A DNA stretch of 28,912 nt from a virus, in IMG/VR virus record IMGVR_UViG_3300005832_000058, positions 1-28,912 of that record, one strand, 5' to 3'. The translations under genes and the position numbers were made by a program. The notes under the pieces were generated by a model, which was not told the origin of the DNA, searched no databases, and saw nothing but the letters and a program-made list of their open reading frames with translations. Of this stretch, positions 8,500 to 28,912 are shown one piece after another. Position 1 is the stretch's first letter. Each line of letters begins with the position of its first letter.

Positions 8500-8503
8500 A
8501 TAT

Positions 8504-8716: not shown

Positions 8717-8717
8717 T

Positions 8718-9201: not shown

Positions 9202-9205
9202 TGAT

Positions 9206-9897: not shown

Positions 9898-9899
9898 AA

Positions 9900-10833: not shown

Positions 10834-10839
10834 TTTTAA

Positions 10840-12306
10840 ATGACTCCTCAACAATCAGCAGCTTTAGCAAAACATAGATTGTTTGCATTCCCAAAATTTG
10901 TGTCTAATTTAAAATGTCCTAGACATATAAAGTTTATTGCTGATAAAATACAAGAAAAATTAGAAATAAAGACTGATAAATATAAACTTCTCACAATTTC
11001 ACTCCCACCAAGGCACGGAAAAACTTTATTAATATCTAAACATTGCGTACCTTGGTATTTGGGTAATTGGCCTAAAAAAAGAGTAATACTTACATCATAT
11101 TCATCTGATCTTTCTGATGAAAATAGTGATTTTGCAAAAGATATTTTTGCGAATTGGGGGCCTATATTATGGAATGCACATCCAAGTAAGTCATTATATA
11201 ATAGAAGTAAATGGAACACAACGGAGGGCGGAGGATGTATTTCCGCTGGTGTTGGTGGCAGTATAACTGGATTCGGCGCAGACCTTTTTATAATAGATGA
11301 TTATTTTAAGGGTAGTGAAGAATCGGAGTCTAAAGATGCTAGAGATAAGCTATGGGCTAAATGGCAATCTATTATAGGTACCAGATTACATCCAGGATGT
11401 TTAGTTATTGTGCTTGCAACACGCTGGTCTAGCGATGACCTTATGGGGAGGCTATTAGATCAAGCAAAGTTAGAAGGTGATGATTTTCCATTTGATTATG
11501 AACATATAAATTTACCTGCTATTGCTGGCAAAAATGATTCTTTAGGGAGAAGAGAAGGTGAAGCTTTATGGCCTGAAAGATATAATATAAAACTTCTCAA
11601 TTCTATAAAAAGAATAGTCGGCCCTTATTGGTGGGAAGCAGAATTTCAAGGTGAACCAGTAAAATTAGGTGGAAATTTATTTAAATCTCAAAATTTTAGA
11701 TATTATACAATAGATAGACTTACTAGAAATTATGAATGTTGGAGAATTGGTACGGATGAACCAATTTTTGTAAATAAAAGTGATTTAAAAATAGCTACAA
11801 TTATAGATCCTGCTTTTGATATTAAAAAGAAAAATGATCCATGCGGCATACATGCATGGGCATATTCAAGAAAACATAAAATTTGGTTGCTTTTGGATAG
11901 ATTTAATGATAAAATAGAACATCAGAAAATAAATGATTTTGCATTAAATTTTTCATTAAAAAATAATTCTTCATATATACTTGTTGAAAATGAAAAATTA
12001 GGTAAGGTATTAGTAAAAAATTCAGAAGGGAATGATAGTATATGTAGAAAAAAAATACCCTTTAAGGAAGTTCCGACAAAGGGTCAAGATAAATATACTA
12101 GGGCTGTTCCAATGGCATTATATTTTGAAAATCAAAGAGTATTTTTACCGAAAGATGCAATATGGTTAGCCCATTATGAAAAGAATTTAAAAGATTTTCC
12201 AACTGGAGCGCATGATGAAGATGCTGATTTAACGGCTTATGCTGCTTCTATGGAAGATCAAATTTCTGTAGCAGAAGCACTTGCAAATTTAATGCGCGGG
12301 AAATAA
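10840..12306 (+). CDS. terL: Terminase large subunit
   Basis: The 488-residue protein is the DNA packaging motor and nuclease. Walker A is PPRHGKT (56-62); Walker B is LFIIDD (149-154); the coupling motif is ATRW (193-196). The nuclease domain starts with IIDPAFD (321-327, Asp323 as a metal ligand), then LVENEK (Glu383), and a final acidic cluster AHDEDADL (457-464). The order and spacing are typical of a full-length tailed-phage large terminase. It starts 6 nt after the upstream stop, with a weak Shine-Dalgarno, and is followed at 1 nt by the portal. Confidence 0.95.
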   Translation: MTPQQSAALAKHRLFAFPKFVSNLKCPRHIKFIADKIQEKLEIKTDKYKLLTISLPPRHGKTLLISKHCVPWYLGNWPKKRVILTSYSSDLSDENSDFAKDIFANWGPILWNAHPSKSLYNRSKWNTTEGGGCISAGVGGSITGFGADLFIIDDYFKGSEESESKDARDKLWAKWQSIIGTRLHPGCLVIVLATRWSSDDLMGRLLDQAKLEGDDFPFDYEHINLPAIAGKNDSLGRREGEALWPERYNIKLLNSIKRIVGPYWWEAEFQGEPVKLGGNLFKSQNFRYYTIDRLTRNYECWRIGTDEPIFVNKSDLKIATIIDPAFDIKKKNDPCGIHAWAYSRKHKIWLLLDRFNDKIEHQKINDFALNFSLKNNSSYILVENEKLGKVLVKNSEGNDSICRKKIPFKEVPTKGQDKYTRAVPMALYFENQRVFLPKDAIWLAHYEKNLKDFPTGAHDEDADLTAYAASMEDQISVAEALANLMRGK

Positions 12307-12307
12307 T

Positions 12308-13951
12308 ATGAGACAAAAAAGAAATTATAATAAAAACAAAAATATTGTAAAATATAATAATTTTGATTCAGCCAGTATAGTAAGGCGATATAAAGCTAGG
12401 AGAGATGCATTTGAGAATGGTCTTTCTGGGTTTGGTGGCCAATATGACCCTATACAAAGATTAACTTATAATTATTCTGATATATTGTCAACTGGTACTA
12501 TCGAAACATTATATAGACAAGATTGGATATCAAGAAAAATAGTTGAAACCGTGCCAGATGATTGTTTAAGAAAATGGATAGATATATATGTACCAGACAA
12601 TAATATAGTATTAGATTTGCAGAAAAAAATAAAAGAATTAGATGCAGTTAAAAAGATAAAAGAAGCTTTAATAAATGCAAGACTTTATGGGGGTTCAGTA
12701 GTAATATTAGGTATACCGGATTCTGGTGTTCAAAATAAACCTCTTGATTATGATAAAATAGAAGATGTTTTATATCTAAACGTAATAAATAGAACTGGAT
12801 TACAAGTACATTCTTACTATAAAGATCCATTAAAAGCTAACTATGGAGAACCGCAACTATATAAGATTCAAACATTACATAGACCAGAGAATTATGATCC
12901 AAATAAATATATGATTCACGAATCAAGGATACTTAGGTTTGATGGTAATTATTTACCAGAATTGACAAGAATAACAAATCAAGGGTGGCACGATTCTATA
13001 TTAAATGTTATAAATCAAACATTAAAAGAATATGGAACGAGTATACAATCTGGTGCAATTTTATTTCAAGATTTTATAAGTAAAGTTCTCAAAATACCAA
13101 ATTTAGTTGATTTATTACAAAGCGATGAAGGAAGACAAATATTAGAACTTAGATTACAATATGCTATTTCTAATTTAAGCTCTATCGGTATGGTTTTAGT
13201 AGGCGAAAATGAAGAATTTAGTAAAATACAAACCCCTATAGCCGGATTATCAGAATTAATTGATAAATATATTGAAATAGTATCTGCTTCTTCAAATATT
13301 CCACGGTCAAGATTATTTGGTCAATCACTAGGAACTCTTGCAGGTGCTACTGAGACAACTAGAGCATACTATGATTATTGTACGGCTTATCAAACTGATA
13401 AAATATTTAATCAAGTTAATAAGCTATTAAAGATTTTATTAAATAGAAAAAATAGTGTAAATAATGGTGTTGAACCTGAAGAATGGAGTTTTAAATTTAA
13501 TTCTTTATGGGATGCAACAGATAAAGAAACAACTACCGCTCGGAAAATGCAAGCGCAAGTCGATGAAATTTATATAGAGAAGAAAGTTTTAACTCCGGAA
13601 GAAGTAGCTATTTCACGGTTTAGAAAAGATGGTTATAGTTTTGACACAATAGTAGATATAACACATAGAATAGGAAAATTTTACGAAGAAATTGAATCTG
13701 GTAATTTAAATTTTACAGAAGATAAATTTGAATTTCCTGATAGTGGTAATGAACCTGAAGAGGTTAAAAGAATATTGTCAACAATATATTCTGATCGTAT
13801 GTCTAAATGGGTTAAATCAAACCCAAATGATAAAGAAAATAAAGATAATAAAACTATTTGTGCTAAAATTGCATGGTCTGCCGTTGAAGATTCTGATTGG
13901 CAAAAAGATAAAAATGGTAAATGGACAAAAATAACTAAAAGCACAAAATAA
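12308..13951 (+). CDS. Portal protein (DUF1073 type) with ChaB-like C-terminus
   Basis: The first 460 residues match DUF1073-type portals: YRQDWISRKIVETVPDDCLRKW near the start, SGAILFQDFISKVLKI in the middle and the SASSNIPRSRLFGQSLG segment that marks the crown/wing region. The portal forms the dodecameric ring through which DNA enters. Residues about 482-545 form a separate module: EPEEVKRILSTIYSDRMSKW, then TICAKIAWSAVEDSDWQKDKNG, which has the Ala-Trp-Ser-Ala-Val pattern of ChaB-like domains. A variable linker (470-481) joins the two. It lies next to the terminase, as is usual. Confidence 0.9.
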   Translation: MRQKRNYNKNKNIVKYNNFDSASIVRRYKARRDAFENGLSGFGGQYDPIQRLTYNYSDILSTGTIETLYRQDWISRKIVETVPDDCLRKWIDIYVPDNNIVLDLQKKIKELDAVKKIKEALINARLYGGSVVILGIPDSGVQNKPLDYDKIEDVLYLNVINRTGLQVHSYYKDPLKANYGEPQLYKIQTLHRPENYDPNKYMIHESRILRFDGNYLPELTRITNQGWHDSILNVINQTLKEYGTSIQSGAILFQDFISKVLKIPNLVDLLQSDEGRQILELRLQYAISNLSSIGMVLVGENEEFSKIQTPIAGLSELIDKYIEIVSASSNIPRSRLFGQSLGTLAGATETTRAYYDYCTAYQTDKIFNQVNKLLKILLNRKNSVNNGVEPEEWSFKFNSLWDATDKETTTARKMQAQVDEIYIEKKVLTPEEVAISRFRKDGYSFDTIVDITHRIGKFYEEIESGNLNFTEDKFEFPDSGNEPEEVKRILSTIYSDRMSKWVKSNPNDKENKDNKTICAKIAWSAVEDSDWQKDKNGKWTKITKSTK

Positions 13952-15390: not shown

Positions 15391-16158
15391 ATGCAAACTT
15401 CAGTAAACAGTGCAATGCAGGTTGGTTTACCTGGACAATTGTATGGATTAAATCATGATATAATTGGAAGAAATAACTATTCAAAAAAGTTAGATAAAGT
15501 TACGATTACAGCAGCAGATGCGGCTACAGTATGTACCGTTAATGGTACTGCTTATACTGCAAATTCTGGAGCAGGTGTAATGACTAAAACGGCTATCGCG
15601 GAAGAGTTAGCCGGACTAATAAATGCTGGAACGGACGCCTTAGCTTACTTTACGGCAGCCGCTGAATATATTTTAGTTGAAGCACTTATCGTTGGTACGA
15701 CTACGACTGTAGTGGGTACAACTAATTGTACAGTAGTTAATCAAATTGCGAATGCAGCCGCTATAAATTTTGGTCTTTTTGTCTGTCAAGATCAAATTGA
15801 TCAAGAAAAAGCACGAGTCCCAATTGTGGCAGCAGATGTAACTACAACATTATTGGCTTGTGGTATAACTTGTCTTACTCAGGCTATAGAACAGTATTAT
15901 CAATCAGTTGGTGGGGCCGGTTATGCTTTAAATGAAGAGATGAGCATAGTGCGAAGGGGTATGATTTGGGTTTTAACAGAAACAGCCGTAACTCCTTCAT
16001 CTACACCATATGCAAGATATACTGTTGCTACTACTGAAAAACTAGGTGCAATTAGAGGTGATGACGATACGTCAAAGGCAGCAATCATACCTACAGCAAG
16101 ATTTATTCGTGGAGCAGCGGCAGGTGGGTATGCTCTCTTAGACATTAATTTACCATAA
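15391..16158 (+). CDS. Capsid cement (decoration) protein with inserted domain
   Basis: The ends match structural cement proteins found next to DUF2184 capsids: GLPGQLYGLNHDIIGRNN at the start, INFGLFVC (125-132) before VPIV, and MSIVRRGMIWVLTETAV and YALLDINLP at the end. This class reinforces the shell. Residues about 35-118 are an insertion: KVTITAADAATVCTVNGTAY, NSGAGVMTKTAIAEELAGLI, then a beta-rich Thr/Val tail. It resembles a small beta module also seen in the neck protein at 18568-19185. GAAAGGAAATAAAT precedes the ATG. The base composition looks less AT-rich than in the early genes. Confidence 0.7.
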   Translation: MQTSVNSAMQVGLPGQLYGLNHDIIGRNNYSKKLDKVTITAADAATVCTVNGTAYTANSGAGVMTKTAIAEELAGLINAGTDALAYFTAAAEYILVEALIVGTTTTVVGTTNCTVVNQIANAAAINFGLFVCQDQIDQEKARVPIVAADVTTTLLACGITCLTQAIEQYYQSVGGAGYALNEEMSIVRRGMIWVLTETAVTPSSTPYARYTVATTEKLGAIRGDDDTSKAAIIPTARFIRGAAAGGYALLDINLP

Positions 16159-16187
16159 TTTAAATATATTTTTTGGAGGATTTTAAT

Positions 16188-17123
16188 ATGATAAGATTTG
16201 ATAGTATTAGACATAGATTAGATGCAAATGAGACTTTATTTCTTGCAAGAGAATTAGAGTCTATTGAATCTACTCTATATGAATGGCTTGAGCCTGAACT
16301 TAAGTATAGAATGTTAATTCCTACCAGTAATGAAGATAGTCCTGGTGCAGAGACTATTACTTACCGTATGATTACTATGGTAGGTATGGCAAAAATAATT
16401 GCTAATTATTCTGCTGACTTACCAAGAGCAGATGCTATTACAAAGGAATATTCTCAGAAAGTAAAAACTATTGGTATATCATTTGGTTATAACACACAAG
16501 AAGTAAGGGCTGCAACATTGGCCAATAAGCCTCTTGAAAAAATAAAAGCTGATGCCGCAAGGCGTGCAGTACGAGAGAAAGAAAATGCTTTAGCTTGGAC
16601 AGGAGATAGTTCGCATGGAATAATTGGATTCTTAAACAATCCAAACATCCCTGTCCAAGCTGCCCCTGCCGGAGTTGGCGGAACTACATGGGCATTAAAA
16701 ACACCTGATGAAATTATAGAAGATATTTCTTTAATGGTACAAACTATGAGAGATTCCTCGAAAGGTATTCATTCTGGAGACACATTGGTTCTTCCGATTG
16801 CTCAATATACTATAATCACCACATTGCCTAGGTCTGCGAACAGTGATACAACTATAGCAGAATTTGTATTGAAAAACAAGGCATATGGTATAAGGCAGAT
16901 AGAATGGTTGAATGAGTTAAAGACAGCCTTTACGAGTGGGACGAAAGATGGAGCGATTTTTTATGAAAAAAATGAAAGAGTTTTACAAAATAGGATTCCA
17001 TTAGAAATGATAACTCATCCTGTTCAAGAAAAAGGTCTTGAATATATAGTGCCTATTGAGGCAAGGAATGGTGGAGTTGTTGTACGGTATCCTCTTGGGT
17101 GCTTGTTTTTCACTGGGATTTAA
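16188..17123 (+). CDS. Major capsid protein (DUF2184)
   Basis: The 311-residue product matches DUF2184, an HK97-fold major capsid protein. IRFDSIRHRLDANETLFLARELE at the start, PGAETITYRMITMVGMAKII, and the central AITKEYSQKVKTIGISFGYNTQE strand with REKENALAWTG are typical. The C-terminus reads ARNGGVVVRYPLGCLFFTGI. The start is the ATG at 16188, after GGAGGATTTTAAT; the TTG at 16173 lies before the binding site. A perfect hairpin follows the stop. Confidence 0.9.
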   Translation: MIRFDSIRHRLDANETLFLARELESIESTLYEWLEPELKYRMLIPTSNEDSPGAETITYRMITMVGMAKIIANYSADLPRADAITKEYSQKVKTIGISFGYNTQEVRAATLANKPLEKIKADAARRAVREKENALAWTGDSSHGIIGFLNNPNIPVQAAPAGVGGTTWALKTPDEIIEDISLMVQTMRDSSKGIHSGDTLVLPIAQYTIITTLPRSANSDTTIAEFVLKNKAYGIRQIEWLNELKTAFTSGTKDGAIFYEKNERVLQNRIPLEMITHPVQEKGLEYIVPIEARNGGVVVRYPLGCLFFTGI

Positions 17124-17134
17124 TAACAATAAAT

Positions 17135-17167
17135 ATTATGCCCGATAACTTATTTATCGGGCATAAT
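17135..17167 (+). other. Perfect 14-bp hairpin after the major capsid gene
   Basis: ATTATGCCCGATAA (17135-17148) is the exact reverse complement of 17154-17167, with a 5-nt loop. It starts 11 nt after the capsid stop and has no T-run. It could cap the capsid transcript against 3' exonucleases or partly reduce downstream expression. The next gene's Shine-Dalgarno (GATGGGG) lies just after the stem. Confidence 0.75.
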
Positions 17168-17179
17168 GATGGGGTAAAA

Positions 17180-17677
17180 ATGATAGTAATATATAATCAA
17201 CCAAATATTTTTCATCTTCCATATTATACTATAAAAAAAGTACAAAAAAAGGATAAAAATAATATACCTATAATTGATGAAAAAACAGGTGAGCAAAAAT
17301 TAATTAGTAAAAAGGTTACAGAATATCATACGTTTATTCCTGGTAAAAATATTATATCTAGGGAAAAGTGGCTAGATATTGTTGAATATAATAAAAATGA
17401 TATGGAATATTATGAGCCAATATTGAAACCATTCAAACCTATCGTTGATAAAGAAACTCAAATAGAAATTGGTACAGATGAAATTAATATAGATTATAAA
17501 AAATTAAAAACTAACGAAATGTTAAATATAGTAGAAAATACATTTGATAAAAAAGAACTTGAAATATATTTGAAAAATGAAAAGAAAAGAGATAATCCAA
17601 GGATAGCAATAAAAAAAGCTATAAAAAGTCAAATGATTATTGTAAGCGAAGCAGAAGAAGCATTGGAAAAGGATTAA
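17180..17677 (+). CDS. Hypothetical protein after the capsid gene, 165 aa
   Basis: Unrecognised. The start at 17180 is chosen by GATGGGGTAAAA; an earlier start at 17099 would overlap the capsid gene and the hairpin. The N-terminal half is beta-like with an EKTGEQKLISKKV hairpin. The C-terminal half is helical (KLKTNEMLNIVENTFDKKEL, then AIKKAIKSQMIIVSEAEEAL), a pattern faintly like SAP/Rho-N modules. The place between capsid and DUF4054 is one where head accessory proteins are often coded. Confidence 0.55.
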   Translation: MIVIYNQPNIFHLPYYTIKKVQKKDKNNIPIIDEKTGEQKLISKKVTEYHTFIPGKNIISREKWLDIVEYNKNDMEYYEPILKPFKPIVDKETQIEIGTDEINIDYKKLKTNEMLNIVENTFDKKELEIYLKNEKKRDNPRIAIKKAIKSQMIIVSEAEEALEKD

Positions 17678-17678
17678 T

Positions 17679-18050
17679 ATGTCATTAACTACCAAAGAAA
17701 AAGTCATAGCTATTGCTCCCGAATTATCTACACAATCAGATGCAACCTTTGTTATATACATAGCTGAAGCCGGGACAAGCATAAGCCCTTCTTACTTTGG
17801 TAATAAAGCAGAATGGGCGGCTACTAATTGGGTCGCCCATTATATGACAGTTAACAGTGCATCTGGTTCCGGAACTATTAGTGGCCCAATTACCGAGGAA
17901 AGAGTTGGCGATATTTCGCGTAAATATGTAAAACTACAAAAAATTAGTAGAGAAGATGCAGACTATGGAAGAACCAAGTATGGTAGAACTTTTTTGACAA
18001 TAAGAAGTTCTAGGATAGTTGGTTTTTGTGCTATACCTCCAGGAAGATAA
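17679..18050 (+). CDS. Head-tail connector, DUF4054
   Basis: The 123-residue product matches DUF4054: WVAHYMTVNSASGSGTISGP, then EERVGDISRKYVKL and YGRTKYGRTFLTIRS. These proteins sit in the neck at the portal exit and form the adaptor ring for the next connector. AAAGGATTAAT precedes the ATG. It is followed by the gp10-like gene at 2 nt. Confidence 0.8.
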   Translation: MSLTTKEKVIAIAPELSTQSDATFVIYIAEAGTSISPSYFGNKAEWAATNWVAHYMTVNSASGSGTISGPITEERVGDISRKYVKLQKISREDADYGRTKYGRTFLTIRSSRIVGFCAIPPGR

Positions 18051-18052
18051 TA

Positions 18053-18571
18053 ATGTTCGATGTAGAAGTAATTGATGAAAAAACTAAATGGACAAATTTA
18101 GTAAAAAAAATTAAAGAATTAAGTGATCCAGGTGGTAATATAGTTGAAGTTGGTTTATTTGATGATGTTGGTTTAATATCAATAGCTAAAGAAAATGAGC
18201 TTGGTGATCCTCCTAGAAGAGCTAGGCCTTGGCCTATTCCAGAAAGATCATTTTTAAGATTTGTATTTGATAGAGATTTACATGATAATGTAAAAATGAT
18301 GATGAGATATATTGATGATTTAATTATAGGAAATAGAACTAGGCAAGAAATATTGCTAAAAATTGGTGATTCTGTAACCAATTCAGTAAAACAATTTATA
18401 TTAAGTAATTATTATAAATTTAGAAATCCAAATCATCCTATAACAATAAGAAGAAAAGGTCACGATCATCCATTAATACAAAGTGGTAAAATATATAGTA
18501 CGTTAACATATAAAATAGGTAGAGGTAATCCAAAGGGATCTATTAAAACTACTGTAGTTGACTATAAATGA
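18053..18571 (+). CDS. gp10-like tail/neck completion protein
   Basis: The ATG at 18053 lies right after the previous stop; a start at 18026 would overlap the DUF4054 gene. The 172-residue product has the pattern of HK97 gp10-like virion morphogenesis proteins: VEVGLFDDVGLISIAKENELG, then PWPIPERSFLRFVFD, and a C-terminal helix before a Gly/His-rich loop. These proteins cap the tail tube or bridge it to the head. TGA overlaps the next start. Confidence 0.65.
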   Translation: MFDVEVIDEKTKWTNLVKKIKELSDPGGNIVEVGLFDDVGLISIAKENELGDPPRRARPWPIPERSFLRFVFDRDLHDNVKMMMRYIDDLIIGNRTRQEILLKIGDSVTNSVKQFILSNYYKFRNPNHPITIRRKGHDHPLIQSGKIYSTLTYKIGRGNPKGSIKTTVVDYK

Positions 18572-19185
18572 CATTATTAGATAATGAAATAATTATAATA
18601 ATAAAACAAAATACCGGAACATGGTTAAAAGGGCATCATGCAGAAGGTACAAAAACATATTCATATGCAAATGCAAGCGTACAGCCTATAAATGGTGACG
18701 AACTACAAAATCTTCCGGAAGGTGAAAGAATAAAAGGAACATTAAAATTTTATTCTGAATCAGAATTGTTTGATAATTATTTTTTAAGAAGAAAAAATGA
18801 AAATGTAAAAAAAATAGCTACATGTACAATAGACAATGTATTAGATTCTACAGATTATACATGCACTATAAATGAAACAGAATTTTTGTTTAATTCAGGA
18901 GTTGGAGCAACTGCAATTTCTATAGTTGCCGGTATTGTAAATGAAATAGAAAGCGGATCTGAACAAATAACTGTTATAGACAATTTAGATGGAACATATA
19001 CAATAACGGCAAACATAGAAGGCAGTAATTATACATTAATTGTTGATGATAATCAATCATTTAATATAGATGTTGAAAATGTTACAAAAGAATATAAATG
19101 TAAACAAGATAAAGATTATAGTGTTCATAATATTTCGCATTATAAAGCATATGGATTTTTAGTAGAAAGAAAAAATGGCTTATAG
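18568..19185 (+). CDS. Neck/head-closure protein with inserted beta domain
   Basis: The first 75 residues (GTWLKGHHAEG, ANASVQPINGDELQNLPEGER) match a phage neck component in which a Gly-Thr-Trp start and QPxxGDELQxLPEG are recurrent; the last 30 residues (VHNISHYKAYGFLVERKN) continue the same domain. Between them, residues about 82-172 form an insertion: YTCTINETEFLFNSGVGAT, ISIVAGIVNEIESGSEQI, then DGTYTITANIEGSNYTLIVD. It resembles the cement-protein insertion. The gene ends in TAG, overlapping the next ATG. Confidence 0.6.
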   Translation: MTLLDNEIIIIIKQNTGTWLKGHHAEGTKTYSYANASVQPINGDELQNLPEGERIKGTLKFYSESELFDNYFLRRKNENVKKIATCTIDNVLDSTDYTCTINETEFLFNSGVGATAISIVAGIVNEIESGSEQITVIDNLDGTYTITANIEGSNYTLIVDDNQSFNIDVENVTKEYKCKQDKDYSVHNISHYKAYGFLVERKNGL

Positions 19186-19675
19186 GTTAGATCAAACAAA
19201 AGAAGATGCTATATATGATTGGGCCGCTGCATCTTTGTCTGGAACTCAAATTATATGGGACAAACCAAATGCTCCAAGACCAATGTTGCCATATGTTACA
19301 TTAAATATTATTGGTGGGCCTATTAATTTAGCTAACAAAACACCATATAAATATAAAGAACTCGATACATGGACATACCAATTTAAAAAAAGAATAACCT
19401 TAAGTGTAAATATATTTGGATATGAAAATCATTTAAATTTAATTGAATCTTTGTTAGATTCATTAGAATTAGATTCTAAAATAGAAATATTAAATATTGC
19501 AGGATTAGCTTGTTGGGGATATGATGGGCCAATAGATTTAAGTATTAAAAGGGATACTGAATGGGAATTTAGATCGCAAGCAGATGTATTTTTATCATAT
19601 GGTAAAAATGTAGATGATATCCCAGGGGAAGTACAAAGTATAGAATTAAACGGAGAAATAATATCCATATCATAA
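19175..19675 (+). CDS. Neck terminator-like protein
   Basis: The 166-residue protein resembles the tail/neck terminator found before contractile sheath genes: IYDWAAASLSGTQIIWDKPN, then APRPMLPYVTLNIIGGPIN, and later KKRITLSVNIFGYENHLNLI. It has the sheet-plus-helix layout of gpU-like terminators that end the tail tube and sheath. It overlaps the previous gene by 11 nt and is followed by AAAGGAG of the sheath gene. Confidence 0.7.
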   Translation: MAYRLDQTKEDAIYDWAAASLSGTQIIWDKPNAPRPMLPYVTLNIIGGPINLANKTPYKYKELDTWTYQFKKRITLSVNIFGYENHLNLIESLLDSLELDSKIEILNIAGLACWGYDGPIDLSIKRDTEWEFRSQADVFLSYGKNVDDIPGEVQSIELNGEIISIS

Positions 19676-19687
19676 AGGAGTATTAAT

Positions 19688-21046
19688 ATGAGTGATGTAA
19701 AAGATTATGTAGTAATAAATATAACAAGAGAAACAGCAAGAGTTACCAGGGCTGGATTTGGTACACCTCTATTGTTTGGGCCTCATTATTATTTTCCAGA
19801 TAGGGTAATGACGTATACCGATCCTGCTGATATGTTAGATGATGGTTTTTTAACAACTGATGATTTATATAGGGCAGCATTAAAATTATATTCTCAACAA
19901 TTATCACCTCAATCATTTAAAGTAGGTAGGAAACTTGAAGATGTTAATTCTAAGGTTTCTTTGGCATTTACAGGTACACCTTCTGCTGGTACTTGGACTT
20001 TAGATGTTGGTATAGGAGATGCAACACCAGTAACAACTGGTAATATAACATATAGTGCGGATGATGATACTACCGCAATAGAAACAGCCATTGAAGCTTT
20101 GACAGGAGTAACCGAAGTAACTGTAACCGGACTTTATAGCACTGGCTATACAATAGAGTTTACAGGGGTTGATGCAGCAGCAGACTTTAGGATAACTGCA
20201 ATAGATATATCAAGTTTAACTGGCGTAACCGCTGCAACAGTTACACAGGATCAATATGGCTCTGCTGTTGAAACTTGGGATACTGGATTAAACGCTATTA
20301 TAGCAGCAGACGATGATTGGTATGCATTGGTAGCTACGACAAGAACAAAGGCTGATATATTATTACTTGCAGCAATTATAGAGACTAAGATAAAGATGTA
20401 TATAGCATGTAACGGAGAGGCCGATGTCAAAAATGGAATTGCTGCAAATACATTACTATCTTTAAAAGCGTTAACTTATGACAGAACTGCTTATTTATAT
20501 AGTGCTGATTATGCTAATTTTCCTGAGGCTGCTTGGCTTGGTGGTCAATTGCCTAAAAATCCTGGTAGTATCACATGGAAGTTTAAAACGCTTACGGGTA
20601 TAACGCCAGACATTCTTACCGCAGCAGAATTATTGAATATTAATGGAAATTATGGAAATACTTATGAGACTGTTGGCGGTATAAACATGATATCATCAGA
20701 GGCTACGGTAGTTTCTGGAGAATATATTGACATCATACGCGGGACAGATTGGCTACAAGTTAATACACAAACAGATTTATTTGCATTACTTGCCAATCCT
20801 GATAAAATTCCAAGGACAAATGCTGGAGGTGGCGCGATTGAAGGTATAATAAAATATTGGCTTGATAGAGCTGAATCTGCATCTGTTAATTTGTTAGTTC
20901 CAGATGAATCTATTGTATATGTTCCAAGAGTAGAAGATTTACCAATAGCAGATAGGGCAGCGCGTTTGTTCAGTGGAATAACATTCTCTGGTAAATATGC
21001 CGGTGCAATTCATAAGATAACTGTAAATGGAAAATTAAGTATATAA
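19688..21046 (+). CDS. Contractile tail sheath (DUF3383) with inserted domain
   Basis: The 452-residue product matches DUF3383 sheath proteins: DYVVINITRETARVTRAGFGTPL at the start, a conserved FKVGRK (77-82), then WYALVATTRTKADILLLAA, and a C-terminal end that joins neighbouring subunits (GKYAGAIHKITVNGKLSI). The sheath contracts to drive the tube into the host. Residues about 87-195 are an insertion: AGTWTLDVGIGDATPVTTGN, DDTTAIETAIEALTGVTEVT, GYTIEFTGVDAAADFRITA. It is likely exposed on the tail surface. AAAGGAG precedes the start. Confidence 0.9.
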   Translation: MSDVKDYVVINITRETARVTRAGFGTPLLFGPHYYFPDRVMTYTDPADMLDDGFLTTDDLYRAALKLYSQQLSPQSFKVGRKLEDVNSKVSLAFTGTPSAGTWTLDVGIGDATPVTTGNITYSADDDTTAIETAIEALTGVTEVTVTGLYSTGYTIEFTGVDAAADFRITAIDISSLTGVTAATVTQDQYGSAVETWDTGLNAIIAADDDWYALVATTRTKADILLLAAIIETKIKMYIACNGEADVKNGIAANTLLSLKALTYDRTAYLYSADYANFPEAAWLGGQLPKNPGSITWKFKTLTGITPDILTAAELLNINGNYGNTYETVGGINMISSEATVVSGEYIDIIRGTDWLQVNTQTDLFALLANPDKIPRTNAGGGAIEGIIKYWLDRAESASVNLLVPDESIVYVPRVEDLPIADRAARLFSGITFSGKYAGAIHKITVNGKLSI

Positions 21047-21072
21047 TAACATATATTTGAAAGGATAAATTG

Positions 21073-21471
21073 ATGAGGACGTATAATCCAAAAGAAGTGT
21101 CGTTTTTAGTTGGAACTTCTTTACTTACTGGTTGGAATAATATAAGAATTGTTCGAGCCGAAGATGGAGTTATGTTTAGTTCCGGAACACAAGGTGAATT
21201 GACTAGAACTATAAATCACAATAAATTAGGAAGCTTTGTTGTAACAATGCAACAATCAAGTATTGATAATGAAACATTAAGTGCGTTAGCATTATCTCAA
21301 TTGGCTATTCCGTGCATGATGATTGATAGGTCTGGTACAACTAAGGCAGCAATTGAATTGGGAACAGTTATAAAGTTTCCGGATTCAGATTATGGGAAGG
21401 AAGCAGGAACAAGGGAATGGACTATAACTGGAGAATTGATTGCATTTATTGGAAGTAACAATCAAGATTAG
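21073..21471 (+). CDS. Tail tube protein (DUF3277)
   Basis: The 132-residue protein matches DUF3277 tube subunits: VSFLVGTSLLTGWNNIRIVRAED, FSSGTQGELTRTINHNKLG, VTMQQSSIDNETLSALAL and the C-terminal WTITGELIAFIGSNNQD. The tube is a stack of hexamers inside the sheath. The ATG at 21073 follows AAAGGATAAATTG; the adjacent TTG would add one residue. The gene ends in TAG; a second TAG follows 10 codons later. Confidence 0.85.
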   Translation: MRTYNPKEVSFLVGTSLLTGWNNIRIVRAEDGVMFSSGTQGELTRTINHNKLGSFVVTMQQSSIDNETLSALALSQLAIPCMMIDRSGTTKAAIELGTVIKFPDSDYGKEAGTREWTITGELIAFIGSNNQD

Positions 21472-21482
21472 GGAGTTTTGCG

Positions 21483-21932
21483 ATGGGGAATCGAGCAATA
21501 GAAAAAGAAATAGACGGTGAAGTTTATTCATTTTTTATGTTAAGACCAAGAAAGAGCCTTTCTTTATTATCAAAGATAGTTAAGTTACTAGGCCCAAGCA
21601 TAGGAAAAGCTTTTTCAACAGAAGTTAAGGTAAAAGATATAATGGATGCCAATATAAATATTGGTGATTCTGTAATTGCATTTTCAAATCAATTTGATGA
21701 TGATAGAGTACAGAATATAATAGATATACTTTTAAGTCAAGTTCATCATAAAGGAAAAGGAGAATTATCAAATGATGCAGTTTATGATGAGTTATTTTCT
21801 GGAAAAATAAAGCATTTATTTAAAGTTGTATTAAAGGCAATGGAGGTGCAGTATGCTGATTTTTTCGGAGACGAAGATTTTCTTGGGACAATAATAAGGA
21901 AATCAAAGGATCAAATAAAGATAGACAATTAA
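21483..21932 (+). CDS. Tail assembly chaperone (frame 0)
   Basis: The 149-residue protein has the pattern of contractile-phage tail assembly chaperones: a beta start (DGEVYSFFMLRPRKSLSL) and SKIVKLLGPSIGKAF, a region common to myovirus chaperones, then helical sequence. It sits between tube and tape measure, the expected position, and probably gives a longer product by -1 frameshift. GGGAGTTTTGCG lies before the ATG. Confidence 0.7.
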   Translation: MGNRAIEKEIDGEVYSFFMLRPRKSLSLLSKIVKLLGPSIGKAFSTEVKVKDIMDANINIGDSVIAFSNQFDDDRVQNIIDILLSQVHHKGKGELSNDAVYDELFSGKIKHLFKVVLKAMEVQYADFFGDEDFLGTIIRKSKDQIKIDN

Positions 21933-22165
21933 ATAAAAGATTAGTAAATTATGAAGAATTAAATATAGATTTATTCTTATGGAGACCTATTCTTGAAAAA
22001 GTTTTAACATTTACTGAAGTTGAAACATTATGTGATATAAATGATATAGCAGATGCAAACGAAGCATTAGATATTAAGATATATTTGGAAAATTTAAAAG
22101 CAAAAGAAGAAAAAGAAGAATATGACATTAAGGACATTATTGATAAAGTTGGGATTCAAGGGTGA
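21860..22165 (+). CDS. Frameshifted extension of the tail assembly chaperone
   Basis: The -1 frame is open from 21860 (just after TGA at 21857-21859) to TGA at 22163-22165, about 101 codons. It contains clear protein sequence (LVNYEELNIDLFLWRPILEK, then LCDINDIADANEALDIKIY). It has no start of its own, and 21933-22121 would otherwise be empty. A slippery heptamer T-TTT-TTC at 21860-21866 lies in the right frame at the start of the overlap. The fusion would resemble lambda gpGT. The four Arg codons right after the slip are unusual. The frame overlaps the tape measure start. Confidence 0.65.
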   Translation, partial: FFRRRRFSWDNNKEIKGSNKDRQLNKRLVNYEELNIDLFLWRPILEKVLTFTEVETLCDINDIADANEALDIKIYLENLKAKEEKEEYDIKDIIDKVGIQG

Positions 22166-23930
22166 TGTAGCAAAACTTGTTGCATTTGATAATAAGATAA
22201 CATCATTTAAAACTAACGTTTTGGGTCTTAGTGCTGTATTTGCTACTGCTACTGCTAGTCTTGCATATTTTTTAAATGAAGCTGCGAAACTTGAGCAGAC
22301 TAAAATTGCTTTTGAAGTAATGACAAATTCAGCAGCATTAGGCCAAAAATTAATTAAAGATTTATTTACATTTGCAAGAACGACTCCATTTAGAATACCT
22401 GGCGTAATGCAAGCCAGCAAGATCTTATTAGCTATGGGTGTTACTGCGAATGAGCAAATTGATGTGTTAACTAAAATAGGTCATGTTGCCGCCGGAATAG
22501 GGAAGCCTCTTGATCAATTAGCCAGTATATTTGGTAGGGTAAGAGCTGCTGGATATTTAACTGGTTATGAAATGGAACGTTTAAGACGTGCTGGTGTTCC
22601 ATTGGGAGCATATTTATCTGAATTATTAAAGAAGCCCGAAAGAGAAATATTGCATTTGATCAGATCAAAACAAATATCATTTGAGGTGTTTGCCGATGCA
22701 TGGGAATTAATGGTTGAAAAGAGATTCCCAAAGTTAATGGATAGATTGTTACTTACTTTTAAAGGTATAGTTAGCAATATACAGGATTATATATATGAAA
22801 TAGTTGCGTTTTCAGGAGAAGAATTATTACCAGTTTTTAAATTAATGGCTAATCAATTAATGTTTTTACTTGATTCAAGTAGACAGTTAATAGGTTTAAA
22901 ATTTAAACAATTTTTTATTGGTGTATCTTCTGCTCTTGAATTAATTAATAAAGGATTTATAAAACTTTATTTCAGAACAAGAGAAACTATCGATCAATTT
23001 GGTGGAATAAATAGATTATTTAAAATATTCGGTACACTTTTTGGAATGTTTGCAGGGACAAAAGCATTGATGGTTCTTGGTAGAATAGGCAAAATAGTTG
23101 TATCAACTCTTAGTTTTGCATCTTTAAAATTAGCATTAATTGGTGCTGCTATGATAGGAATATTTTTAGCAACAGAAGATATAATTGGATATATATTAGG
23201 TAAAAAATCTGTTTTAGAAGCTATATTAAATATGGTTAGCGAAAAAGCACCTAGGGCATATGGTCATTTAATAAAATGGCTGCGAATATTAAGAAGAGAA
23301 ATAGAAGGATTGTCATTATTAGCCATTGGCTTATTTGTAGGTTTAACAAATGGCGATTGGTCTATGGCTAAAGCCGGAATGGAACAAATGAGTGAAGCAT
23401 ATAGGATGGCATTTGAAAAAGTATCAAAAGAAAAAATAAAACCTACTGTCGAACCATACAAAGGCAAAATAGATATGTCTGAACTAAATGTTATTGAAAG
23501 ACAAATAGCTAAGAGTCCTTTTTTGGTTAAAGTTGCTGAAAAAATTGAAGATTTAAAATATGTAATAGATGACGCATTTAAACCTGCTGGTAAACATATA
23601 CCTATAACTATTGGCCCACAGTTTGAAAGAAATATAATACCAAGGCTATCTTTAAGCCCACAGGCACTAATGTATAGACAGTTAGTAGAAAGACCGACAA
23701 CGAAATCTCCAGAAAGTATTATTCTTGAAAGAAGTGAAAGATTGAGAGAGGGATTGAAAAGTATTAATATAAACATCCCAACTGAAGTTCATTTTAACAA
23801 TTTACCTTTAAATTCTAATAATGAACGAATAGTAAGTGAAATTAAAAATATTATGAAAAAAGTCGCCAGTGAAGTAATTGGTGAGAAATTAAAGACTGAA
23901 CTATCAGCAGTGGAGCCACCAATAGAATAA
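22122..23930 (+). CDS. Tail tape measure protein
   Basis: The 602-residue protein begins with the tape measure domain: TASLAYFLNEAAKLEQTKIA, TRTTPF-type FARTTPFRIPGVMQASKILL, and LASIFGRVRAAGYLTGYEMER. Helical repeats follow; a hydrophobic stretch at about residues 293-361 (KALMVLGRIGKIVVSTLSF, LALIGAAMIGIFLATEDII) would form membrane-inserting helices. C-terminal residues 470-602 are less conserved. The length is short for the class and implies a short tail (roughly 90 nm if 0.15 nm per residue holds; inference). The start has a weak Shine-Dalgarno (GAAGAAAAAGAAGAAT). Confidence 0.9.
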   Translation: MTLRTLLIKLGFKGDVAKLVAFDNKITSFKTNVLGLSAVFATATASLAYFLNEAAKLEQTKIAFEVMTNSAALGQKLIKDLFTFARTTPFRIPGVMQASKILLAMGVTANEQIDVLTKIGHVAAGIGKPLDQLASIFGRVRAAGYLTGYEMERLRRAGVPLGAYLSELLKKPEREILHLIRSKQISFEVFADAWELMVEKRFPKLMDRLLLTFKGIVSNIQDYIYEIVAFSGEELLPVFKLMANQLMFLLDSSRQLIGLKFKQFFIGVSSALELINKGFIKLYFRTRETIDQFGGINRLFKIFGTLFGMFAGTKALMVLGRIGKIVVSTLSFASLKLALIGAAMIGIFLATEDIIGYILGKKSVLEAILNMVSEKAPRAYGHLIKWLRILRREIEGLSLLAIGLFVGLTNGDWSMAKAGMEQMSEAYRMAFEKVSKEKIKPTVEPYKGKIDMSELNVIERQIAKSPFLVKVAEKIEDLKYVIDDAFKPAGKHIPITIGPQFERNIIPRLSLSPQALMYRQLVERPTTKSPESIILERSERLREGLKSININIPTEVHFNNLPLNSNNERIVSEIKNIMKKVASEVIGEKLKTELSAVEPPIE

Positions 23931-24607
23931 TGGCTAATATATTTAAAAGATTTCTTGAAACAAAAAAAGTTACATTAATAAAAGATGGAGATAAAACAAT
24001 AATTGCTTGCGATGTTGTTACAAGCGAAACTCATCAAATGGCTTCTGAGGCTACTCAATATGAAATAGAAGATGGTTCCGATATAAGTGACCATGTTATT
24101 AATAGGGGGAAATTGCTTACAATAGAAGGTGAAATAACAGATGATCCTATAACTATATTAGATACTGGTATTTTTGAAAGAACAATAGCAAATGTTACTC
24201 CTTCAATTTTAAGATCAAAATTATCATTTGGTTTAGGTGGAGATAAAGGCAAACCAAGTAAAGAAGTATTTGATCAATTTGAAAAAATATATGATAATAA
24301 AATTCCGTTGACGATTATTACCGGATTAAAAAAATATGATAATATGATAATGGAAAATTTAAGTATACCACGCACTAGTAAAACTGTTCGTTCATTGAAG
24401 TTTACGGCTACATTTCGTCAAATAAGAATAGTTAGTACACAATTTGTAACAGCTCCATCGGTATATCAAGATGTTGAATTTGGGGCTCAAACAAAAAAAA
24501 ATATAGGAACTCAAAACTCAAAAGCTTTATTGCAAGATGATAATTTAACTTTTACACGAAAGTTAGGAACTTGGGGAATTAACAGTTTTAAAAAAGTATT
24601 TCAATAA
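23930..24607 (+). CDS. Dit-like baseplate hub protein
   Basis: The 225-residue protein resembles the Dit-like N-terminal domain of contractile phages: VVTSETHQMASEATQYEIEDGS, SDHVINRGKLLTIEGEI, then LSIPRTSKTVRSLKFTATF. This domain forms the ring that joins tube to hub. Its ATG overlaps the tape measure stop (TAATG). The last 35 residues are polar and may fold on their own. Confidence 0.8.
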   Translation: MANIFKRFLETKKVTLIKDGDKTIIACDVVTSETHQMASEATQYEIEDGSDISDHVINRGKLLTIEGEITDDPITILDTGIFERTIANVTPSILRSKLSFGLGGDKGKPSKEVFDQFEKIYDNKIPLTIITGLKKYDNMIMENLSIPRTSKTVRSLKFTATFRQIRIVSTQFVTAPSVYQDVEFGAQTKKNIGTQNSKALLQDDNLTFTRKLGTWGINSFKKVFQ

Positions 24608-24949
24608 ATGAATATAAATAATACATATTTTATACAAATACCATTATTAAAAGAAGAATATAATTATGAATTTACTACTATTATAGGTGAATCTACTTAT
24701 ATTTTGTGGATTTATTTTAATAGGCGAATGGGAAGATGGATATTGAATGTTAAGGATGAAAGAAATAATTATTTAGTAATGGGTATACCTATTTTAATAG
24801 GATCTCAAATATTATCAAGATTTGCTAATCATAAATTAAATGATATAAAAATATTATTTGCATTTAACAAAAAGTCACAATATGAAGAGATAGGCGAATT
24901 TGATCTTGGTGATAATGGAGTTTTGCTTGTAGCAAGAGAATTAACATAG
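24608..24949 (+). CDS. Baseplate plug protein (Pam3 gp18-like)
   Basis: The 113-residue protein matches the baseplate plug pattern: IQIPLLKEEYNYEFTTIIG, YILWIYFNRRMGRWILNVKD and VMGIPILIGSQILSRFA. The plug closes the tube end within the hub. It follows the Dit-like gene without a gap. It ends in TAG; read-through would add 16 codons. The 79 nt to the next gene hold only AT-rich sequence and GAGGAATTAAG. Confidence 0.7.
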   Translation: MNINNTYFIQIPLLKEEYNYEFTTIIGESTYILWIYFNRRMGRWILNVKDERNNYLVMGIPILIGSQILSRFANHKLNDIKILFAFNKKSQYEEIGEFDLGDNGVLLVARELT

Positions 24950-25028
24950 TATAAATTTTGTTTTAATAAAAGGTTATCTATTATTAATAATATGTTTTAA
25001 CAGTACTTATGAGGAATTAAGATACGTA

Positions 25029-26090
25029 ATGCAAAATGCTTTATTTAATAGAAATGTATATATAACATTTGGCCCGATAAAGAAATTATATTTAGTAGAA
25101 AATAATTTTGCATTATCAAATATATCTCCTTCTAATATAGTTGGTGGATGGAATTCTATAAGTGTCATGAATGAGGGTTGGCCTTTTATTGAACCAAATA
25201 ATCCTCAAAAATATAATAGAGGATTTTCAAAATTAAGAGTATCATTCGATATAAAAAAGACTCTTGAACAAACTGAAAATGATGCTAATATAGAAATATA
25301 TAATGTATCAAAAGATTCATATAAACTACTTCAGCAAGTAGAAGAAACACATATTGTTCAATTATCAGTTGGCTATGAAAATTTAATAGATACAATATTT
25401 ATAGGTAATATAGAAAATTCATATTATTATAGAGAAAAATCAAATTGGATATTAAATATAAAAGGAAAAGATGGGCAAGAAAACATACAAGATAATATAA
25501 TTAATAAATCATATAGACCTGGGTTTGATTTAAAAAGTGTATTATTGGATATGATAAAATCATCAAATGTGCTTCCAAAAGGAGCATATGATAGCGCAAT
25601 AAAATGGATAGAAGATAAATTATCATCAGGAAAAAAGACTCAAAATGGATTAACTATAAGCGGAAGATTGATAGATGAAGTAAATAAATTACTAAGTGAA
25701 TTTAATGCTACATTATCTATTCAAGATGAAAAAGTACAGATAATATATAAAAATAGTAATAATGAAGATAATATTTTTTTAATATCTCCTTCTTCTGGAT
25801 TGATAGGCTCTCCGAAAGATAAGGGTGCTGATGAAGGATTGGAGTTTAAATGTTTATTAATACCAAAATTGAAACCTGGATCATTGGTTAAGATAGAAAG
25901 TAATACAATAAATGATTTTTATCGTGTAGATAGTATTATTTATAAGGGTGATACCCATAGCAATGATTGGGAATGTAAATGTGAAGCAAGTAAACCAACT
26001 AATATAATTACTGATTTACCTATAATTAAATATTATAATAATATTGAAATAGAAAAAGAATTAAATTCTAGTTGGGAAAGATTAGTATGA
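25029..26090 (+). CDS. Baseplate hub protein
   Basis: The 353-residue product is placed and shaped as the hub (gp27/gpD-like): KLRVSFDIKKTLEQTENDANIEIYN early, then VQLSVGYENLIDTIFIGNIE, a helical IKWIEDKLSSG and INEVNK-like LIDEVNKLLSEFNATLSI, and C-terminal LEFKCLLIPKLKPGSLVKIE. Such hubs carry the spike. The Shine-Dalgarno (GAGGAA) is about 14 nt from the ATG, longer than usual. TGA overlaps the spike start. Confidence 0.75.
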   Translation: MQNALFNRNVYITFGPIKKLYLVENNFALSNISPSNIVGGWNSISVMNEGWPFIEPNNPQKYNRGFSKLRVSFDIKKTLEQTENDANIEIYNVSKDSYKLLQQVEETHIVQLSVGYENLIDTIFIGNIENSYYYREKSNWILNIKGKDGQENIQDNIINKSYRPGFDLKSVLLDMIKSSNVLPKGAYDSAIKWIEDKLSSGKKTQNGLTISGRLIDEVNKLLSEFNATLSIQDEKVQIIYKNSNNEDNIFLISPSSGLIGSPKDKGADEGLEFKCLLIPKLKPGSLVKIESNTINDFYRVDSIIYKGDTHSNDWECKCEASKPTNIITDLPIIKYYNNIEIEKELNSSWERLV

Positions 26091-26761
26091 TAAAAACTAA
26101 TAATACACCAAGTTTTGCAGAATTCGTAAAAAAAGCTTTTAGAAAAGAAGCTTTAGAAATACATGTTTCAGTCCCAGGAAAAATTAAAGAATATGATTCA
26201 GATACACAAAAGGCAACAGTTGTTCCTTTGTTAAAAAAGAAATGGAAAGACGGTTTATCTACATTATCAGATTTACCAGTTTTAAGTAATGTACCTGTTC
26301 ACTGTTTAAGCGCAAATAATAGAAAAACTTTCATTCATATGCCTTTAAAAGCAGGAGACCTTGGAATGATAATGTTTTGTGATAGAAGTATTGATAATTA
26401 CTTATCATCATCTCCACAGGAAGGAAATGAAGTAAAACCTACTTTTCATAATAGCCCACGGCATCATGATTTAAGTGATGCTTGGTTTGTCCCTGGAATA
26501 TTACCATTTAGTTTAGCATTGCAAAACATAACTACTGATGATATAATAATAAAAAATGATAATACTAAAATTACAATTTCTCCTGATGGAAAAATATCAA
26601 TAGAAAATAGTAATTATGAGTTATTGGAAACACTAAGTACATTAATACAAAATTTGATTGATGCAAAGGTTATAACGCTTTTAGGCCCGCAGCCGTTCTT
26701 AGCAAATACAATAGCGTTATTAACGCAAGATAAAACAAAAATAGATTCATTTAAGGTTTAA
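26087..26761 (+). CDS. Baseplate spike protein, gp138 N-terminal type
   Basis: The ATG at 26087 overlaps the hub stop (ATGA) and has GGGAAAG upstream; the TTG at 26072 is less likely. Residues 20-130 resemble the gp138 N-terminal OB-like domain: IHVSVPGKIKEYDSDTQKATV, LSDLPVLSNVPVHCLSAN, and KAGDLGMIMFCDRSIDNYL. The rest forms beta repeats (TTDDIIIKNDNTKITISPDG). The spike tip pierces the host envelope. Confidence 0.8.
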   Translation: MIKTNNTPSFAEFVKKAFRKEALEIHVSVPGKIKEYDSDTQKATVVPLLKKKWKDGLSTLSDLPVLSNVPVHCLSANNRKTFIHMPLKAGDLGMIMFCDRSIDNYLSSSPQEGNEVKPTFHNSPRHHDLSDAWFVPGILPFSLALQNITTDDIIIKNDNTKITISPDGKISIENSNYELLETLSTLIQNLIDAKVITLLGPQPFLANTIALLTQDKTKIDSFKV

Positions 26762-26765
26762 TAAA

Positions 26766-27005
26766 ATGCCTCTTATAGGAACAGCATCTACATGGAGAGA
26801 TTCTTTAATATCTGCAATGGGAATAAATTTTACTGGTATGTCACCAGCGGAAGAAGCAATAGTTAAAGCTGCATGGTTAGCTATATGCCAAACACATATA
26901 ACACATTTAACAACTAATTCACTAATTTTAACTACAGGTGTTACGGCAACAGGCACACCTGGAGGCCCATTACCAATAACGGCACAACCTGGAAGTTTGA
27001 GTTAA
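26766..27005 (+). CDS. Small baseplate-associated protein, 79 aa
   Basis: Unrecognised by family. AAGGTTTAATAAA precedes the ATG. A helical start (WRDSLISAMGINFTG, AEEAIVKAAWLAICQTHITH) is followed by a Thr/Gly/Pro-rich end (TGVTATGTPGGPLPITAQPG). Its place between the spike and the gp25-like wedge fits a spike- or wedge-associated component of simple baseplates. Confidence 0.55.
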   Translation: MPLIGTASTWRDSLISAMGINFTGMSPAEEAIVKAAWLAICQTHITHLTTNSLILTTGVTATGTPGGPLPITAQPGSLS

Positions 27006-27008
27006 ATT

Positions 27009-27386
27009 ATGAGCGATATAATTGATTTAAAATTAGATTCTGATAATTGGAATTATGTTCTAATAGAAGGCCAAGATTTAGCTACGGTATCAGGTATAGA
27101 TGCAATAGAACAACATTTAAAACAAAGATTTCAATTTTTTAGAGGCGAATATAAGCATAATTTAACCCGTGGGATACCCTATCATGATGAATTTTTTAAA
27201 AAAAGCCTAAATCCAATAGTAATGGATAGTATATTAAAAGATGTAATATTGGAAACACCAGGAATAATTGAATTGTTAAGTTTTTCAATTGAGTTAGATG
27301 ATCAAACAAGAATCTTATCTGTTATATTTAAAGTATCAACAGATAGCGGTATCTTAGATTATAATGGAAAAATTCCATTAGGATAA
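27009..27386 (+). CDS. Baseplate wedge protein, gp25-like
   Basis: The 125-residue protein matches gp25-like wedge subunits: EGQDLATVSGIDAIEQHLKQRF, RGEYKHNLTRGIPYHDEFF, then ETPGIIELLSFSIELDDQ. Gp25-type proteins initiate sheath assembly on the baseplate. It lies directly before the J-like gene, as in other simple contractile tails. Confidence 0.85.
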   Translation: MSDIIDLKLDSDNWNYVLIEGQDLATVSGIDAIEQHLKQRFQFFRGEYKHNLTRGIPYHDEFFKKSLNPIVMDSILKDVILETPGIIELLSFSIELDDQTRILSVIFKVSTDSGILDYNGKIPLG

Positions 27387-27396
27387 GGAATGTAAT

Positions 27397-28912
27397 ATGG
27401 CCGTAGAATATGGTGTTACAATTAATGGTTTTGCTATAAAAACATTAGATGTAATAAAAGGCGAAATTAATGAAGATTTAAAAACGATATTAGGAAACCA
27501 AATAAACACATTGCCTGAATCTGTTTTTGGAACATTAATAGATCAATTCTCAGAAAGACTGCATGAGATGTGGGAATTATTCCAATTATTATATAATGCA
27601 GCATATCCGCAGACGGCTGAAGGAGTAAGCCTTGATAACGTAGCTGATTATGCAGCCACAGAACGGTTAGAAGCTAGGGAATCAACAATAACCGTTCAGG
27701 CCTTATTTGGAACCGTGTCAACGGTAATTCCTGCCCGAACTCAGTTTTCCGTTGACGATGATCCTTTAACTGTTTTTTCTACAGATGAAGAAGTAACCTT
27801 GGTAGCGGGAACCGATGAAGCTCAAACTATAACATTTTCAGTTACTCCAAGTGGGGGAGCTTTTACATTAAAATATGGAACTGAAGAAACTGTTAGCTTG
27901 CCATATAATATACTTAATACTGAATTAACTACAGCTTTAAATAATTTAAGTATCTTATCAGGCGTAAATATAACAGGATCTATCGCTGCTGGTTTTACAG
28001 TAGTATTTTCAGGTAATGATGGTAAACAACCACATTTGTTATTAACAGTAGGTACAAATACATTGACTCCGGCCACAACTATAACAATTACAAGAACAAT
28101 AACAGGGGTATATCAAGGTTCTGTATCTATGACCTGCACCGAAACAGGGCCTAAAAATGCAAATGCAACAACATTAAATATAATAGATAATCCTATAAGT
28201 GGATTAGATAGAACATTTAATGTTGTTGATGCAGTTATCGGAAGAGATGAAGAAACTGATGCTGAACTAAGAATAAGAAGAAATGAAAATGTTATAACTT
28301 CAAGAGCAGCTACGGTTGAAGCTATAAGAAACAAAGTGTTAGATTTAAATGATGATGAATATGAAAATTTGCCAGAATTGACAGATGTTATAGTATATGA
28401 AAATGATACAGATTCTATAGATTCTAAAAACATGCCCCCACATAGTATTATGGTTGTTGTAAGGCAGGCTGGTGATGTTGATACAAGAGATCAAGAAATT
28501 GCTCAAGCAATATTTGATTCAAAAGCAGCAGGAATAGCAACAAGTTATGGTAATGCTACTGGAGGTAACGCGGTAACTAAGACCGTGACTGATTCAACTG
28601 GAATAGATCATTCAATAAATTTTGCAAGGCCAACAGCCGTAGATATTTATTTAATATTTGATGGATTTACAACAAATAGTGAGTATCCAGATGATGGTGA
28701 TGATCAGTTAAAAACAATTTTAGCTACATGGGGCAATTCTCTGGGAACAGGAATGGATGTAATAGTTTATCCACAATTGGTAGCTCAAGTTAATGAAGTT
28801 CCTGGGATATTAGATTTTACTATTAAAATAGGAACTTCATCACCACCAACTGTCGATGATAATATAGATATAAGTGATGGTGTTGGCAGTACTCCCGAAT
28901 ATTCTGTTTGGA
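27397..28912 (+). CDS. Baseplate J-like protein with inserted domain (partial)
   Basis: The frame starts at ATG 27397 after AAGGAATGTAAT and runs off the window end (about 505 codons seen). Recognisable J-like parts are the start (LPESVFGTLIDQFSERLHEM, TAEGVSLDNVADYAATERLEA), PARTQFSVDD, then SVSMTCTETGPKNANATTLN and RDEETDAELRIRRNENV, SVEAIRNKV-like ATVEAIRNKV. Residues about 141-240 are an insertion not expected in the plain fold: QTITFSVTPSGGAFTLKYG, PYNILNTELTTALNNLSIL, FTVVFSGNDGKQPHLLLTV. This is the wedge protein that anchors the tail fibres. Confidence 0.85.
   Translation, partial: MAVEYGVTINGFAIKTLDVIKGEINEDLKTILGNQINTLPESVFGTLIDQFSERLHEMWELFQLLYNAAYPQTAEGVSLDNVADYAATERLEARESTITVQALFGTVSTVIPARTQFSVDDDPLTVFSTDEEVTLVAGTDEAQTITFSVTPSGGAFTLKYGTEETVSLPYNILNTELTTALNNLSILSGVNITGSIAAGFTVVFSGNDGKQPHLLLTVGTNTLTPATTITITRTITGVYQGSVSMTCTETGPKNANATTLNIIDNPISGLDRTFNVVDAVIGRDEETDAELRIRRNENVITSRAATVEAIRNKVLDLNDDEYENLPELTDVIVYENDTDSIDSKNMPPHSIMVVVRQAGDVDTRDQEIAQAIFDSKAAGIATSYGNATGGNAVTKTVTDSTGIDHSINFARPTAVDIYLIFDGFTTNSEYPDDGDDQLKTILATWGNSLGTGMDVIVYPQLVAQVNEVPGILDFTIKIGTSSPPTVDDNIDISDGVGSTPEYSVW

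Follow-up and report, generated by a model that had tools for sequence, protein, structure and literature searches.

The window, as the whole analyzed stretch of 28,912 nucleotides is called here, comprises positions 1–28,912 of IMG/VR virus record IMGVR_UViG_3300005832_000058. Four virion proteins encoded in it, the cement (capsid decoration) protein, a neck protein, the tail sheath, and a baseplate J-like wedge protein, each carry an additional segment of 80–110 residues between conserved family segments. These four segments are probably self-contained beta/alpha domains (beta-beta-alpha, then several strands) that reside in loops of core virion proteins and that recombination has, over evolutionary time, inserted, removed, and passed from one virion gene to another. 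An earlier note on this DNA had proposed the insertions and their division into two types. Both proposals are borne out, and the proposed boundaries are good; by shuffle scores and profile comparison, the cement and neck segments form type 1 and the sheath and J segments form type 2.

The freshwater myophage Pam3, a contractile-tail phage, has the same gene order and parent families as the window but lacks all four inserts. Further relatives were surveyed as contigs (designated L and a number) that had been selected with module or parent profiles; therefore, counts among them are not prevalences. The four proteins and their modules are the following:

15391..16158, plus strand: cement (capsid decoration) protein, 255 residues (Pam3 gp6, 166 residues); match to PF22758 (E 6e-17) from residue 110
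15493..15744, plus strand: type-1 module in the cement protein, residues 35–118; homologous to the neck insert and present in 13 surveyed contigs
18568..19185, plus strand: neck/head-completion (connector) protein, 205 residues (Pam3 gp11, 110 residues); match to phrog_939 and to the Pam3 connector (E 8e-5)
18811..19083, plus strand: type-1 module in the neck protein, residues 82–172; tblastn and profile matches
19688..21046, plus strand: tail sheath, 452 residues (Pam3 gp13, 384 residues); matches to DUF3383 (E 3e-22) and phrog_205 (E 1e-86)
19946..20278, plus strand: type-2 module in the sheath, residues 87–197; AlphaFold model and PDB matches
27397..28911, plus strand: baseplate J-like wedge protein, at least 505 residues, running past the window end (Pam3 gp22, 299 residues); matches to phrog_6 (E 6e-42) and 9zd7 gp88 (E 1e-27)
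27817..28116, plus strand: type-2 module in slot 1 of the J-like protein, residues 141–240; homologous to the sheath insert and absent from L038–L040 and Pam3

The homology within each type is supported by several independent comparisons. Against 2,000 shuffles, the cement and neck inserts give a pairwise score of 62 (shuffled mean 31, p 0.0005) and the sheath and J inserts a score of 108 (shuffled mean 37, p < 0.0005), while none of the four cross-type pairs scores significantly. Searches with profiles of each insert, which the earlier note had suggested, likewise link cement to neck (E 5e-8) and sheath to J (E 2e-9); no similarity between types 1 and 2 is found by profile comparison, and attempts to link them directly failed. 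By tblastn, a J query matches the sheath inserts of four relatives and a cement query matches the neck insert of two, and the within-type homology extends to all close relatives. Most real module matches reach 80–140 bits by profile, compared with no matches in shuffled open reading frames (ORFs) and at most 15.3 bits in reversed ones. Weak type-1 matches under ~27 bits (L056, L058, L060, and a second copy in L061) are regarded as tentative.

Among annotated phages, the neck insert alone matches the sheaths of Pseudomonas phages and the baseplate wedges of Vibrio phages by tblastn. The same search with the sheath, J, or cement insert alone found nothing, and a search with the whole cement protein turned up no annotated phage either. 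No Pfam family covers either module type. Immunoglobulin (Ig)-like Pfam families give no match above their curated cut-offs, only weak single-member matches (E 0.01 or worse), and a single type-1 member weakly matches Flagellin_IN (E 0.028).

Structure modelling and comparison of the models, also suggested by the earlier note, gave a clear outcome for type 2, which is predicted with high confidence to fold alone, but not for the type-1 insert of the neck, whose model is of low confidence. The type-2 segment modelled by itself (AlphaFold, 28 sequences) has a predicted local distance difference test score (pLDDT) of 93.5 and a predicted template modelling score (pTM) of 0.86, and its elements follow the order two strands, a helix, and four further strands. 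The type-2 profile finds three tandem copies in the tail-tip cage gp23 of mycobacteriophage Bxb1 (E 1.6e-24), as well as the C-termini of its major capsid protein (MCP; E 3.4e-6) and tail tube (E 0.0015). The model matches the structures of these three proteins with Z scores of 14.1, 11.5, and 9.4, the highest corresponding to 2.3 Å over 103 of the 111 type-2 residues. The minor capsid protein of phage Patience is matched at Z 9.4 and the outer domains of flagellar FliD/FliC at Z ~5–7. Among predicted viral proteins, the model matches major tail, minor tail, sheath, and fibre proteins.

The sheaths of nine phages (Pa193, E217, PhiTE, A-1(L), Bas63, Sf14, XM1, Milano, and 7-7-1) are matched at Z 5.5–8.5, among them Pa193 (Z 8.5), E217 (Z 7.3–7.5), and XM1 (Z 6.8). 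In all of these sheath chains the matches fall only at equivalent residues, ~80–218, and it is this coincidence of slot, rather than the height of the Z scores, that carries the argument for the sheath.

In the AlphaFold model of the neck protein, the body matches the insert-free necks of Pam3, XM1, and SPP1 (Z 8.6–9.6), while the insert has a pLDDT of ~46–60. Foldseek gave no significant match with this model; VIA-align recovered the body, and the insert only weakly against the Bas63 wedge (Z 4.8). Judged from the sequence and the low-confidence model, the elements of type 1 follow the same order as those of type 2, and the type-1 profile matches the sheath slot of 9zdk gp76 (E 1e-11). Types 1 and 2 are two sequence families, probably of one fold class.

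The match of the cement protein to PF22758 (62.5 bits against a cut-off of 27) starts only at residue 110, and that of the neck protein to phrog_939 is confined to residues 11–68. The matches to phrog_205/DUF3383 and to phrog_6 extend along the whole sheath and along J, respectively. The sheath segment counts as an insertion only when compared with short sheaths like that of Pam3; most DUF3383-type sheaths carry a domain at this place. In J, the segment sits within a beta region (~residues 95–275) that the J relatives of L038–L040 retain without the module. Relatives cleanly lacking the inserts, a comparison proposed in the earlier note, are at hand in Pam3, in J of L038–L040, and in the neck of L054. 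The neck homologue of L055 (9998–10879; 294 residues) has a long C-terminal extension unlike both module types, and that of L059 (3551–4267) has a beta-rich extension ahead of the neck core, so that additions seem to be tolerated at several sites of the neck protein.

The occupancy of the slots differs among relatives. J slot 1 holds a type-2 module in the window and in 45 surveyed contigs, a type-1 module in Vibrio phage eugene 12A10, and no module in L038–L040, L054, and Pam3. The sheath slot, of type 2 in the window, is of type 1 in phage phiK7A1 and in L054, L091, L101, L108, and L089, the last four of which keep type 2 in J. In L058, L060, and L061, the cement protein is ~390 residues long, and its extended N-terminal part gives weak type-1 matches. 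Modules also occur in phages of the Felix O1, phiK7A1, and eugene kinds. Three further sites are empty in the window and occupied elsewhere:

17679..18050, plus strand: DUF4054 adaptor, module-free; a type-1 module is present in its L038 homologue
19175..19675, plus strand: tail terminator, module-free; a type-2 module is present in its L030 homologue
28555..28566, plus strand: J slot 2 (residues ~387–390, around residue 388), empty; type 1 in L036, type 2 in L037 and L052

The clearest case of exchange is provided by L054, whose sheath module shares 51% identity with the neck module of the window over 78 residues, while the sheath bodies of the two are 25% identical, and the neck protein of L054 carries no module. 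Three genes after J, L054 also encodes a 383-residue protein of no recognised family (10473–11621), which harbors a type-1 module 59% identical to that of the L054 sheath and could be a fibre or collar protein. From these sequence comparisons, the spread of modules between virion genes is well supported. The earlier note had suggested spread by recombination, and the empty, type-1, and type-2 states of the same slots agree with this; the exchange, however, is old and has left no recent sign.

Synonymous differences (pS) are near saturation in inserts and bodies alike; therefore, no exchange is recent. A recent import of the modules was considered and dropped, as both synonymous divergence and base composition, which follows that of the parent genes, match the parents. 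At similar pS, nonsynonymous differences (pN) amount to 0.04–0.16 in the sheath insert and 0.16–0.26 in the sheath body. The J insert of the window evolves faster than the J body, and the cement and neck inserts evolve at roughly the rate of their bodies. The conserved sheath module does not look like a fast-changing host-range determinant, and its strong conservation speaks against a host-range role for this copy. The sheath module (window positions 19946–20272) also contains many invariant polar residues, such as a DDD run before the helix, and on the basis of sequence these may mark a binding or contact surface.

Two other accounts of the origin of the segments can be weighed against insertion and exchange. 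That the segments are integral parts of each parent fold, resembling one another only as beta-rich, threonine-rich sequences, is most improbable. Although the sheath slot is filled in most DUF3383 sheaths and is in that sense an established part of the family, shuffled and reversed sequences do not reproduce the matches, relatives exist that cleanly lack the modules, and the type-2 segment is predicted to fold alone. It is also quite unlikely that each gene received a single ancient insertion followed by vertical descent, with the apparent swaps reflecting deep divergence. The close relatives do all keep the same module types in the same four slots, and no sign of recent transfer is seen, as this account would have it. 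However, the modules of J slot 2, the terminator, and the adaptor sit among relatives without them, and the sheath module of L054 is twice as similar to the neck module of the window as the two sheath bodies are to one another. Several points weigh against the preferred account of exchanged, self-contained domains. The sheath-slot Z scores of 5.5–8.5 lie near the level at which the tool warns of common arrangements. The shared fold of the two types is indirect, given the low confidence of the type-1 model and profiles that do not align, and surface exposure of the modules in the window's particle is inferred, not observed. Short metagenome contigs could also be misassembled; to the contrary, each module lies within an ORF and the type-2 module of J slot 2 occurs on two contigs.

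With respect to function, the preferred explanation, reached by inference, is surface decoration with weak contacts. The modules would project in many copies from the assembled particle and serve mainly to make weak contacts with the cell envelope or adjacent proteins, whereas the sheath copy may by now be under constraint as part of the tail surface or lattice. The earlier note had suggested a shared surface function, for example glycan binding or particle stabilisation; the published precedents point both ways. It is possible, though not the favored explanation, that the modules are host adhesins that keep the particle attached to the cell surface through numerous weak carbohydrate-binding sites distributed over capsid, neck, tail, and baseplate. 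In mycobacteriophage Douge, host glycans are bound by Ig-like domains exposed on the MCP and tail tube (PMC13033339), an FN3 domain of SPP1 has been proposed to do so (PMC8718954), and the type-1 module of L054 recurs in the ORF three genes after J. Conversely, conservation is higher in the sheath module than in the sheath body, the modules were not detected in other genes of two relatives (G004, 40 kb, and G005, 67 kb), and no Pfam carbohydrate-binding family matches them. Because the Douge domains are absent from the sequence and fold matches, their function is not carried over to the modules.

An equally tentative alternative is that the modules are structural braces, which stabilise the particle through specific interactions with adjacent virion proteins or fibres. 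Such a role is consistent with the strong purifying selection seen in the sheath module, and precedents include the wedge insertion domain of phage A-1(L), which fills a cleft of the hub and anchors the long tail fibre (PMC10966104), the inserted wing domain of XM1 gp16 (PMC10457771), and domain 2 of YSD1, which adds a ring interface (PMC8718954). Yet the same slot takes either of two dissimilar families or nothing, which is hard to reconcile with one specific interface; acceptance of two sequence families by one slot speaks against such an interface at each slot. A more far-reaching proposal, considered unlikely, is that the modules constitute one portable system in which two families share one fold and one partner (e.g., a conserved envelope glycan or a phage-coded accessory protein). 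If so, any virion protein with a tolerant loop could gain the same attachment point.

From position 12308 on, the genes of the window are ordered portal, protease/scaffold-like protein, cement, MCP, adaptor (DUF4054), neck, terminator, sheath, tube, chaperone, tape measure, hub, spike, gp25, and the J-like wedge, which runs off the end. Within positions 1–13000, ORFs of at least 100 residues lie on the minus strand before ~6000 and nearly all on the plus strand after ~8000. The window contains no tRNA gene, and a search for relatives in bacterial genomes found none. In L038 (3441–4331), two adjacent tube-like genes (3441–3896 and 3900–4331) each match the tail tube protein of the window.

Phage virion proteins are already known to carry accessory domains and to show domain mosaicism (PMC8718954, PMC10684548). 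The closest parallel to type 2, in both profile and fold, is Bxb1, in which a single particle has members of one domain family in its MCP, its tail tube gp19, and its tail-tip cage gp23 (9d93, 9d9w, and 9d9x); a Corndog preprint mentions three CTE-like domains in the Bxb1 DTP (PMC13252515). Bxb1 is, however, a siphophage whose MCP and tail tube carry the matched domain at the C-terminus, whereas the window has internal insertions in contractile-tail proteins and a second family. The insertion domain (InD) of the XM1 sheath and domain A of the E217 sheath occupy the same place as type 2, with fold similarities (Z 6.8 and 7.3–7.5, respectively) near the level of common arrangements. The XM1 InD has been linked to the D3 domain of FliD (PMC10457771), which type 2 likewise resembles to some degree (FliD/FliC, Z ~5–7). 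The InD was described as unique to XM1, but modules of the same kind are also found in the baseplate wedge and, in one relative, the terminator. The XM1 InD is probably one case of a wider family that includes the Bxb1 domains.

Ig-like accessory domains (Big_2, FN3, and others) are likewise small beta domains on many virion proteins, some of them glycan-binding (PMC13033339, PMC8718954); unlike these, the window modules hold a central helix and are internal. Phage domain mosaicism similarly involves homologous domains common to otherwise unrelated phage proteins (PMC10684548), whereas in the window and its relatives it is core machine parts (such as sheath, cement, connector, terminator, and wedge) that share domains. 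As far as the cited papers show, slot-by-slot insertion and replacement across head, neck, tail, and baseplate within one phage group is new.

The core parts of a contractile phage, beyond fibres and lysins, share a stock of exchangeable domains, and the occupied slots mark tolerant loops in these proteins. The repeated domains of Bxb1 are connected with the sheath insertion domains, pointing to a domain family that has no Pfam entry. The natural empty, type-1, and type-2 states of a single slot offer a ready comparison for the role of the domain.

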